Shown in pieces: positions 25,191 through 31,526 of a stretch of DNA of 39,857 bases (positions are counted from its first letter, which is position 1; every line of letters starts with the position of its first letter). Source of the DNA: Clostridiales bacterium DTU074 (GTDB lineage Bacteria; Bacillota; Clostridia; Caldicoprobacterales; Caldicoprobacteraceae). The notes under the pieces were generated by a model that worked only from the letters and a program-made list of their open reading frames with translations, did not search any database and was not told the DNA's origin. The stretch lies in the NCBI GenBank assembly GCA_001513075.1, contig LFSE01000112.1, positions 1 to 39,857 of the forward strand. Reading direction: 5' to 3'. Position numbers and translations under genes: made by a program.

Positions 25191-25288
25191 TTGATCATTG
25201 ATCGATTTTCCAGGTTCCGGTATCAAATGTGCCACTTTTCGGAAAATCCTACAGACTGTGACTGCTCGGTAAAAATAATTGGTTTGGA

Positions 25289-28282: not shown

Positions 28283-28372
28283 GGTGAGCGCCGTATCAGC
28301 TTTATTCGTATACCGAGCTACTTAACTATTCTTCTTATTATTTTGCTGCAATGCTTTGTTTGTTAGGCAAAA

Positions 28373-28414
28373 AGTCCCGTGGGTGAAGGATGTATTTTTA
28401 CCCTGGGCTTTTTT
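28373..28414 (+). terminator. Terminator after yabR
   Basis: AGTCCC and GGGT (28373-28384) pair with ACCC and GGGCT (28400-28409) around an internal loop, then TTTTTT. It lies inside the long upstream extension of the next ORF and shows that the extension is not coding. Confidence 0.65.
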
Positions 28415-28493
28415 GTTATGGCTGGTAAATCATTTTTATAGTTCGACTCTGCTGTTGCATAATAATCAGAATAACGGAAAGGGGATGCTAAGG

Positions 28494-29801
28494 ATGTTTA
28501 TCAAAGAAATTGCTGCAAGCCTTTATCCCTGGGATTTGGCTGATGAGGGAATTGAAACCATTGCCGATAACCTGGTGAACCGGAGTAATGTTAATTCGAT
28601 ATACCTTGTCGGTGTGATGCATTTTGAAAAACGGCCACTGACCAGTTTGTTCTACACTCATAACAGCAAGAGAAAGTATTATTTGCCTGAAAACAGCAGG
28701 GTGTATTACAGACTGGATTTGAACAATTTTAAGAACACCAGGTTAAAACCGCTGTTCTCCGAACGGGATTTTTTAAAGGATACTGACTGGTTGGATGTAC
28801 TGATCTCCGAGGCAAGGAAACGAAAGCTGAAAGCCGGCGTTGAACTGTCCCACACCATTTTCGATACCAATGTGGCGTACAGGGAGTATCCCGATATATT
28901 ACAACGGAATATTAACGGGGACATCATCCAGGCACCTCAGGGGATAGTTTGTCCCAATCACCCGGATGTTCGTGAGTACCAGCGTATAATGTTCTACGAT
29001 ACCGTCAAAAACCATGACGTTGATTTTATCCAGACCTGTCTTTTGACTTTTGCCAGCGGCGGCAGCGTGAAAGCCCCTTGGTTTTTTGCCGAGTGGATGG
29101 ATGTTAACCGCACCTACCTCGGACCGTTAATGGGGATAGCCAATGGCGGCTGCTTTTGCGACAGGTGTCGTGATAAAGCGAAAGAGTTGGGGTATGACTG
29201 GGAACTGATTGTAAGGGATATGAGCAAATTGTACAGGGTTGCCAATGCCACGCCGTATCGTTTCCAGGAAGAGCTCATGGAGAATAACCTCACTTTGGGA
29301 AGCAATCTGACTGAAAGCATGCTGCTCATTGAGTATCCCGGTCTGTTACAGTTCCTTAAATTCCGTATTGACAGTGTTACCGAATTGTTTAAAGACATAT
29401 ATGAAGGTATCAAGGAAGCCAATTCTTCGGTTGAGTTCAGATATAACAATCATGTGCGTTATCCCGAATTTGAAGGGATTTCGTTTAAAGACATAGCCCC
29501 ATATGTTGATTCGGTCCGCGATTCGGATTATTCGGAACAAATTGGTGCCCCGGATAAATTCGTATATAAACGGAATACAATACTTAAAATAAGGCGCGGT
29601 ATCAGCTTTGACAAGAATATAATTGCGGCTATAGCTGTGCGTCCCAATGCGACTCCCGAATTAATAAAGGAATCCATCAAGGTTCTGTCGACATTGGGCA
29701 TAGACGGCCTTTCACTCGGGCATTACGACGGTTCTCATTTTGAGCATCTTGACGCGGTGGCCCAGGGTATGAAGGAAGCAAACATTACTATTGTTGATTG
29801 A
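28494..29801 (+). CDS. TIM-barrel putative glycoside-hydrolase-like protein
   Basis: I do not recognise a named family. The 435-aa product has the alternating strand/helix pattern of a TIM barrel, VELSHTIFD and DVDFIQTCL segments, a Cys cluster GGCFCDRC (Cys220, Cys222, Cys225) of a kind seen in several uncharacterised glycosidase-like proteins, and an end with DGLSLGHYDGSHFEHLDAV. No signal peptide. The start is taken at ATG 28494 (GGGG nine bases upstream); an upstream in-frame start at 28356 would include a terminator. It is followed 27 nt later by the LarA-like gene and likely works with it. Sugar or sugar-acid metabolism is inference. Confidence 0.6.
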   Translation: MFIKEIAASLYPWDLADEGIETIADNLVNRSNVNSIYLVGVMHFEKRPLTSLFYTHNSKRKYYLPENSRVYYRLDLNNFKNTRLKPLFSERDFLKDTDWLDVLISEARKRKLKAGVELSHTIFDTNVAYREYPDILQRNINGDIIQAPQGIVCPNHPDVREYQRIMFYDTVKNHDVDFIQTCLLTFASGGSVKAPWFFAEWMDVNRTYLGPLMGIANGGCFCDRCRDKAKELGYDWELIVRDMSKLYRVANATPYRFQEELMENNLTLGSNLTESMLLIEYPGLLQFLKFRIDSVTELFKDIYEGIKEANSSVEFRYNNHVRYPEFEGISFKDIAPYVDSVRDSDYSEQIGAPDKFVYKRNTILKIRRGISFDKNIIAAIAVRPNATPELIKESIKVLSTLGIDGLSLGHYDGSHFEHLDAVAQGMKEANITIVD

Positions 29802-29828
29802 AGTATGTTTAAACAGGCGAGGTGACAT

Positions 29829-31124
29829 ATGGTGAAGATAAAGTTAGCCGGCCAGGAGGTTAAGCTGCCCGATAATGCAATTATTGCACGTCCTCCTGCA
29901 GCTCCAGGGCCGATTACCTTCCCGGAAGCAATAAAGGAGGCCCTTGATAATCCGCTGGATACCGAACCGCTGGAAAAATGGGATTTAAGGGACAAAAAAA
30001 TTGCCGTGCTGGTGGATGACTGGGGAAGGCCCACGCCCTGCGGGGAATTTTTGCCAGATGTACTGAGGAGGTTGAATCAGGCGGGGGCAGAAGACAGGAA
30101 TATAACCGTGATAACGGCCAGCGGAATGCACGATCCCATGGGTGAGGAAGATATGCGGAGGAAGGTAGGGGATGAGGTATACAAGCGGGTACGATGCATT
30201 TCCCACGATGCTGGGAATCCGGAAATGCAGGCATTTGTTAAAATTACAGATTTGGGCACTCCTGTCTGGGTAAACAGATATGTGGCCGAAGCCGATTTTA
30301 AGATGGCGCTGGGCCGGATTTTTCCCCACGTTACCTATGGCTATGAAGGCGGGTACAAGATGATTGTGCCGGGCGTTGCATCCTTTGAAACCATTATTCG
30401 GGATCACTCTCTAAATTTTTCACCCTTGTCAGACTATGGCAATCTGCAAAACAATCCCAGCAGAAATGAAGCGGATGCAATAGGGTGTATGGTCGGATTG
30501 GATTTGTTGGTAAATTTCGTAATGAACTGGGATGGACAACCGGTTAAGGCTTTTGCGGGAACCCCCGAAAAGGTTTTTCCTGTCGGCGTTGATTTTGGTC
30601 AAAGGCATGTCTGGGGATTTGTTACAGGAGGCAGAATGGCTGATGTTGTCATTATCTGCAACGAAGATGTGGGCGATCTCTCCCTGTCCAACAACCCTAT
30701 CTACTATTTGGGTCTGGCTCTTTCGATAACTGACCCCGAGGGAGTTGTAATATCGGCAATGGATTATATCCCCCGGAAGAAATCCTTGGTATGCGGCTAT
30801 GATCTGGAAATGATTTCTTTAAGCGAACTTATCAGGCTTCATGAAAAAAGGAATTGGAATTTAGATGACAGACAGATTCAGCATGTACTAAAAGCCATAC
30901 GGGGAACATTCTATGAACGTCGCGTATTTGAATTGAGATCTCAGAAACTATATATTGTATCCGATACCTTCCCGTTTTCCCGTTTGGAAAAGTGGAGAGC
31001 GCGTCAGTTTGAAACCATACAACAGGCGCTTGATGAAGCCCTAGATGGGAGGGATGATGCGACAGTTATGGTTTTTCCCGATATCAAACATACCTTGCCC
31101 TTGCTAAGATATGATTTTGCGTAG
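29829..31124 (+). CDS. LarA-type nickel-dependent hydroxyacid racemase/epimerase homologue
   Basis: LarA enzymes racemise or epimerise 2-hydroxyacids with a nickel-pincer nucleotide bound to a lysine. Here LVDDWGRPTPCGEF lines up with the LarA DKTRPTP motif, and His101, His167, Lys177 (GYEGGYKMIVPG) and His193 line up with Lactobacillus LarA His108, His174, Lys184 and His200, all with one constant offset of seven. All cofactor and catalytic residues thus appear present. Length is 431 aa. The substrate is not determined; lactate, malate and gluconate-type LarA homologues are known. Cofactor genes larB, larC and larE are not in the window. GGCGAGGTGA precedes ATG 29829. Confidence 0.85.
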   Translation: MVKIKLAGQEVKLPDNAIIARPPAAPGPITFPEAIKEALDNPLDTEPLEKWDLRDKKIAVLVDDWGRPTPCGEFLPDVLRRLNQAGAEDRNITVITASGMHDPMGEEDMRRKVGDEVYKRVRCISHDAGNPEMQAFVKITDLGTPVWVNRYVAEADFKMALGRIFPHVTYGYEGGYKMIVPGVASFETIIRDHSLNFSPLSDYGNLQNNPSRNEADAIGCMVGLDLLVNFVMNWDGQPVKAFAGTPEKVFPVGVDFGQRHVWGFVTGGRMADVVIICNEDVGDLSLSNNPIYYLGLALSITDPEGVVISAMDYIPRKKSLVCGYDLEMISLSELIRLHEKRNWNLDDRQIQHVLKAIRGTFYERRVFELRSQKLYIVSDTFPFSRLEKWRARQFETIQQALDEALDGRDDATVMVFPDIKHTLPLLRYDFA

Positions 31125-31173: not shown

Positions 31174-31202
31174 TTGACTTAAAACGAGTTTTATTATACA
31201 AT
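31174..31202 (+). promoter_or_regulatory. Sigma-A promoter of the tRNA cluster
   Basis: TTGACT (31174-31179), 17 nt, TACAAT (31197-31202). A leader hairpin CCGCC/GGCGG follows (31211-31226). Confidence 0.75.
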
Positions 31203-31231: not shown

Positions 31232-31308
<77 letters not shown>

Positions 31309-31317
31309 ATTTTTTAT

Positions 31318-31394
31318 GGCGGCGTAGCTCAGTTGGCTAGAGCATTCGGTTCATACCCGAAGTGTCAGCGGTTCGAATCCGTTCGCCGCCACCA
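31318..31394 (+). tRNA. tRNA-Met (CAT), elongator
   Basis: 77 nt, acceptor GGCGGCG paired with CGCCGCC, D-arm GCTCAGTTGGCTAGAGC, anticodon loop TTCATAC with anticodon CAT, T-loop GGTTCGAATCC, CCA encoded. The loop context is that of elongator Met rather than the lysidine Ile tRNA. Confidence 0.93.
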
Positions 31395-31450
31395 TCCCCC
31401 AGACTGGTTATTATAATTTAACTGATGCGGGGTAAACAATGAAATACTTT

Positions 31451-31526
31451 GGGCGCATAGCTCAGCTGGGAGAGCACTTGCCTTACAAGCAAGGGGTCAT
31501 AGGTTCAAGTCCTATTGCGCCCACCA
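31451..31526 (+). tRNA. tRNA-Val (TAC)
   Basis: 76 nt, acceptor GGGCGCA paired with TGCGCCC, D-arm AGCTCAGCTGGGAGAGC, anticodon loop CTTACAA with anticodon TAC, T-loop GGTTCAAGTCC, CCA encoded. Confidence 0.96.

Follow-up and report, generated by a model that had tools for sequence, protein, structure and literature searches.

A LarA homologue with a replaced substrate anchor and a recurring TIM-barrel partner in Clostridiales bacterium DTU074

The LarA homologue (LarAH) encoded downstream of yabR in Clostridiales bacterium DTU074 is, judged from its sequence, a new variant in the LarA superfamily: the site for the nickel pincer nucleotide (NPN) and the acid/base pair are intact, the substrate anchor is changed, and a TIM-barrel protein recurs as its partner. 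The window analyzed here is the whole 39,857-nt stretch of contig LFSE01000112.1 (GCA_001513075.1). Both genes of the pair are on the forward strand, namely the gene for a 435-aa TIM-barrel protein of GH42/GHL10-like fold (28494..29801, including the stop codon) and the gene for the 431-aa LarAH (29829..31124 including the stop codon, 29829-31121 without it), and 27 nt separate the two open reading frames. A strong intrinsic terminator 3' of yabR (28366..28415, forward strand; hairpin of -22.1 kcal/mol, z -3.9, then a T-run), also seen in a congener (L058), lies between yabR and the pair. Just 5' of the two genes, forward-strand hexamer pairs resembling sigma-70 promoters (28413..28463, 9/12 matches) provide weak evidence only. 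The right-hand edge of this slot is a promoter-like site, TTGACT-17-TACAAT (31174..31202, forward strand), located in sequence conserved among congeners and followed by genes for tRNA-Met, tRNA-Met, and tRNA-Val (31232..31526, forward strand). Because a terminator follows yabR and a promoter-like site starts the tRNA cluster, the two genes are probably co-transcribed as their own unit. The first-pass annotation had described the pair as inserted into the sporulation locus after yabR; the site is correct, whereas the terminator suggests a unit separate from the sporulation operon. None of the neighboring genes within the window points to a substrate.

The LarAH matches the Pfam domain Lar_N (PF09861) with an E-value of 2.2e-50 and 171 bits against a cut-off of 23.3. 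We aligned it in three MAFFT modes with L. plantarum LarA (L097), taken from an annotated plasmid larABCE operon. In all three modes, the NPN ligands R75, K184, and H200 of LarA correspond to R67, K177, and H193, the catalytic histidines H108 and H174 to H101 and H167, and D72 to D64; alignments with PDB entries agree with this assignment. The correspondence proposed earlier for His101, His167, Lys177, and His193, at a constant offset of 7 from LarA, is thereby reproduced. The genes larE, larB, and larC, whose absence would have refuted the first-pass annotation, are clustered in the same genome (contig C108, 24640-27578). In this cluster larC (L014:6216-7627) occupies two adjacent frames; the L. 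plantarum lar operon is annotated with the same layout, which fits the known larC1/larC2 arrangement. Since the NPN ligands and both catalytic histidines are intact and larBCE is present in the genome, the LarAH likely uses NPN, as previously supposed, and is presumably loaded with it by the products of these genes.

The C domain is where the protein departs from LarA. Isosphaera LarA grips lactate at its carboxylate through Arg73, Gln295, Lys298, and the two histidines, and at its 2-hydroxyl group through His107 and Tyr294 (PMC11851776). Residues Y294, Q295, and K298 of LarA are replaced by N288, N289, and Y292 in the window LarAH and by N, N, and C in its Treponema relative, a loss that went unmentioned in the first-pass annotation. 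The replacement extends to all clade members, of which only three were found; in contrast, Q295 and K298 are kept in 38 out of 38 other sampled LarAHs, where position 294 is Y or W. The loss is independent of the exact alignment, since the corresponding helix-11 stretch (residues 278-305) has no Lys, Gln, Arg, or His. The characterized malate racemase and D-gluconate epimerase both keep K298, which is also absent from some groups of the superfamily of unknown function (PMC7583248), and thus its loss is compatible with superfamily membership. These replacements predict a substrate that either is something other than a plain 2-hydroxy acid or is gripped in another way. An ordinary 2-hydroxy acid could still be bound: the equivalents of Arg67 and the two histidines also contact the carboxylate in LarA, which counts against an altered substrate. 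The predicted structure of the LarAH is poor (pLDDT 49).

Loss of the carboxylate-binding set would also suit an enzyme that binds NPN for a different hydride transfer, for instance to a neighboring carbon or in isomerizing a carbinol of some neutral sugar or polyol, the barrel being a further enzyme of the pathway. Other reactions have been suggested for LarAHs without the catalytic residues (PMC7583248), and single-histidine LarAHs with altered C domains, tied to carbohydrate metabolism, exist (PMC12611868). However, the window LarAH keeps both histidines, a better fit to inversion at one center than to one-way transfer, and we regard this alternative as unlikely.

The protein also stands apart in classification. 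It falls below every cut-off of the NCBIfam LarAH equivalog models (LarA, LarAH5, LarAH6, LarAH10, LarAH14-16, and LarAH18; cut-offs 460-740 bits), the best scores being 218 vs 500 bits for LarAH6 and 210 vs 462 bits for LarAH5. A 42-row tree places the LarAHs of the pair in one clade with support of 100/100 and a long stem. As controls, the two other LarAHs of the genome both pass their cut-offs. One of them, on contig C45, does so as a LarAH6 malate racemase (588 vs 500 bits); its operon (L053:1963-7232) contains iolD- and iolE-like genes, an unexpected setting for malate. The other, on contig C56, does so as a group-18 hexonate epimerase (664 vs 500 bits) and is encoded near a 6-phosphogluconate dehydrogenase and an FGGY kinase.

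Naming the family of the barrel from its sequence returned no family above cut-off, the Pfam scores being 16.4 vs 27.9 bits for GHL10 and 16.3 vs 21 bits for GH42. Its model (pLDDT 70) is a TIM barrel, with Foldseek E-values down to 2.6e-8 and VIA-align Z scores of 15-18.6, and the closest folds are Cwp19, PgaB, and GH42. The cysteines C153 and C220-F-C222-x-x-C225 form a Cys-x-Cys-x-x-Cys motif with an upstream Cys, which we take to resemble the zinc/metal site of GH42. At the end of strand beta-4, as assigned from the pLDDT-70 model, the window barrel clade has Q180-T-C182; the aligned positions hold Glu in the distant relatives from Rhizobium, Haladaptatus, and genome G457, and Asn-Glu in that from Parabacteroides. 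Because the beta-4 Glu is replaced by Gln180/Cys182, the barrel is unlikely to be an ordinary retaining glycosidase. Thus, the "glycosidase-like" label given to it earlier is right for the fold and wrong for the catalytic residue. The distant relatives are encoded in sugar isomerase/Gfo-Idh operons in Rhizobium, with glycerate kinase in Parabacteroides, and with dipeptide epimerase in Haladaptatus.

These data bear on a conventional explanation of the pair, in which the LarAH is a canonical 2-hydroxy-acid racemase or aldonate C2-epimerase with Arg67 and the two histidines as the sole ligands of the carboxylate, and the barrel, as a glycosidase, sets the sugar acid free. The kept histidines and the equivalents of Arg75 and Asp72 agree with it, as do the nearest folds of the barrel and the occurrence of its distant relatives in sugar operons and beside glycerate kinase. 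Against it stand the replacement of all three anchor residues, including the K298 that the known D-gluconate epimerase retains, the missing beta-4 Glu of the barrel, and the presence elsewhere in the same genome of a LarAH that scores above the hexonate epimerase cut-off and is encoded near 6-phosphogluconate dehydrogenase and an FGGY kinase. We therefore consider this explanation improbable. Sugar-acid C2-epimerization by the pair, as first suggested, is not supported for the same reasons, the aldonate-type LarAH of the genome being the C56 gene; it is possible, and less favored than a reading with an altered anchor.

Close relatives of the barrel were identified in one congener, in Gallacutalibacter (75% identity), in Treponema (70%), and in two Paenibacillus genomes (52%). 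A congener carries the intact pair in the same order, at 85-90% identity and with dN/dS of 0.05 for the barrel and 0.07 for the LarAH, values indicating that both genes are under purifying selection. A pseudogene or an assembly error was rejected in view of the open frames, these dN/dS values, and the independent congener MAG. In Treponema sp. Gx481_bin92, a cluster (L060:521-7821) encodes, in order, barrel A, a glycyl radical activase, a glycyl radical enzyme, barrel B, and a LarAH; the latter is 57% identical to the window LarAH and directly follows the barrel paralog. The glycyl radical enzyme has the motifs C427-x-E429 and G791, with the activase gene adjacent. It could be assigned to no known reaction, every NCBIfam equivalog score being below cut-off, and it may have a new substrate. 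The source genome itself encodes at least six glycyl-radical-enzyme-like proteins (L089-L094, on contigs C71, C54, C61, C68, C48, and C42), none of which exceeds a named equivalog cut-off, and the one on C48 adjoins a GH38 mannosidase. The Paenibacillus barrel adjoins an Ldh_2 dehydrogenase.

The pair is rare. The barrel was found in one other genome out of 391 of the class; among 200 genomes from the Treponema family it occurred nowhere else, and the 394 genomes of the Gallacutalibacter order gave, apart from Gallacutalibacter itself, a single weak match. A close full-length LarAH was found in 0 of 291 class genomes, and the viral contigs searched gave no match. We accordingly rejected the idea of a widespread system, the pair being rare in the genomes searched. 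Literature searches for a link of LarA to either glycoside hydrolases or glycyl radical enzymes returned nothing. The barrel-LarAH pair is nonetheless real, and it is probably functional, the main evidence being adjacency in two phyla. The original description of the two genes as paired is thus strengthened by the recurrence of this adjacency in another phylum, within a glycyl radical enzyme cluster.

Comparison with the congener genome G285, which is collinear with the window at ~80% identity, shows that the slot between yabR and the tRNA genes is variable and the pair accessory, as G285 has 12.8 kb of different genes in its place. The island in this slot (contig C4, L056:3637-15001) encodes an IclR-like regulator, a glyoxylate carboligase-like TPP enzyme, a canonical lactate racemase (619 bits vs a cut-off of 460), an FAD oxidoreductase, a protein with weak similarity to alpha-galacturonidase, and sugar ABC components. 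Elsewhere in the window, part of a type I restriction enzyme HsdR (24-2030) is 99% identical to G285, in contrast to ~80% for the rest, which suggests a recent transfer; at 25193-25287, G285 has ~9.2 kb of extra DNA within otherwise collinear sequence. A variable slot that holds other genes in a congener could bring together chance neighbors that do not work together, and no LarAH lies beside the barrel relatives in Gallacutalibacter, Paenibacillus, or genome G457. However, the order conserved in a congener, the Treponema adjacency, the 27-nt spacing, and purifying selection on both genes make mere coincidence very unlikely.

The best reading, to which we give about even chances, is a LarAH variant that uses NPN on a substrate which probably derives from a carbohydrate and is anchored in an unusual way, with the barrel acting on the same compound in a small accessory catabolic operon. 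NPN made by LarB, LarC, and LarE would sit on Lys177, His193, and Arg67, and the LarAH would isomerize a carbinol center through proton-coupled hydride transfer, His101 and His167 taking turns as acid and base. In place of the usual anchor, the C domain offers two candidates, the invariant loop with Arg316-Lys317 and the residues Arg364/Arg365. The GH42-like barrel would act on this compound before or after the LarAH, presumably by a chemistry other than that of glycosidases with the usual two catalytic glutamates. In Treponema, the glycyl radical eliminase of the same cluster would probably receive the product.

A bolder version, which we consider doubtful, is an NPN enzyme for a substrate without a 2-hydroxy-carboxylate handle, such as the carbinol of a neutral sugar or polyol; its pathway partners would be a glycyl radical eliminase and a GH42-like barrel that does not hydrolyze. 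The NPN enzymes of known activity act on 2-hydroxy carboxylates gripped by a conserved anchor; if this version is true, NPN chemistry is wider than 2-hydroxy acids. Whether NPN does other chemistry has been asked explicitly (PMC7583248), and a clade that has the cofactor site and both histidines, lacks the anchor, and has defined partners offers a tractable test.

Among known systems, the Treponema glycyl radical enzyme shares C427-x-E429, Gly791, and an adjacent activase with the PFL2/diol dehydratase group, and differs from known enzymes in scoring under every NCBIfam equivalog cut-off. The window barrel has the TIM-barrel fold in common with GH42 beta-galactosidases, Cwp19, and PgaB (GHL10-like); unlike GH42, it has no beta-4 Glu and is a single 435-aa domain without the further domains of that family. 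The LarAH belongs with the LarA superfamily (COG3875/DUF2088, Lar_N PF09861), nearest to the LarAH5 and LarAH6 malate racemases, and shares with it the N-domain NPN ligands Arg, Lys, and His, the two catalytic His, the two-domain length of ~430 aa, and larBCE in the genome. It differs in an identity of ~30-38%, mostly over the N domain, in the replaced Y294/Q295/K298, in a C-domain insertion, DYxxRK, in scores under all NCBIfam subfamily cut-offs, and in its own deep clade. The single-histidine LarAHs (LarA_Bw and LarA_Sp, group 17; PMC12611868) resemble it in having C-domain active-site residues different from canonical LarA and links to carbohydrate genes; however, they are ~500 aa long and have His174 changed to Asn, whereas the window LarAH keeps both histidines and loses the C-domain anchor.
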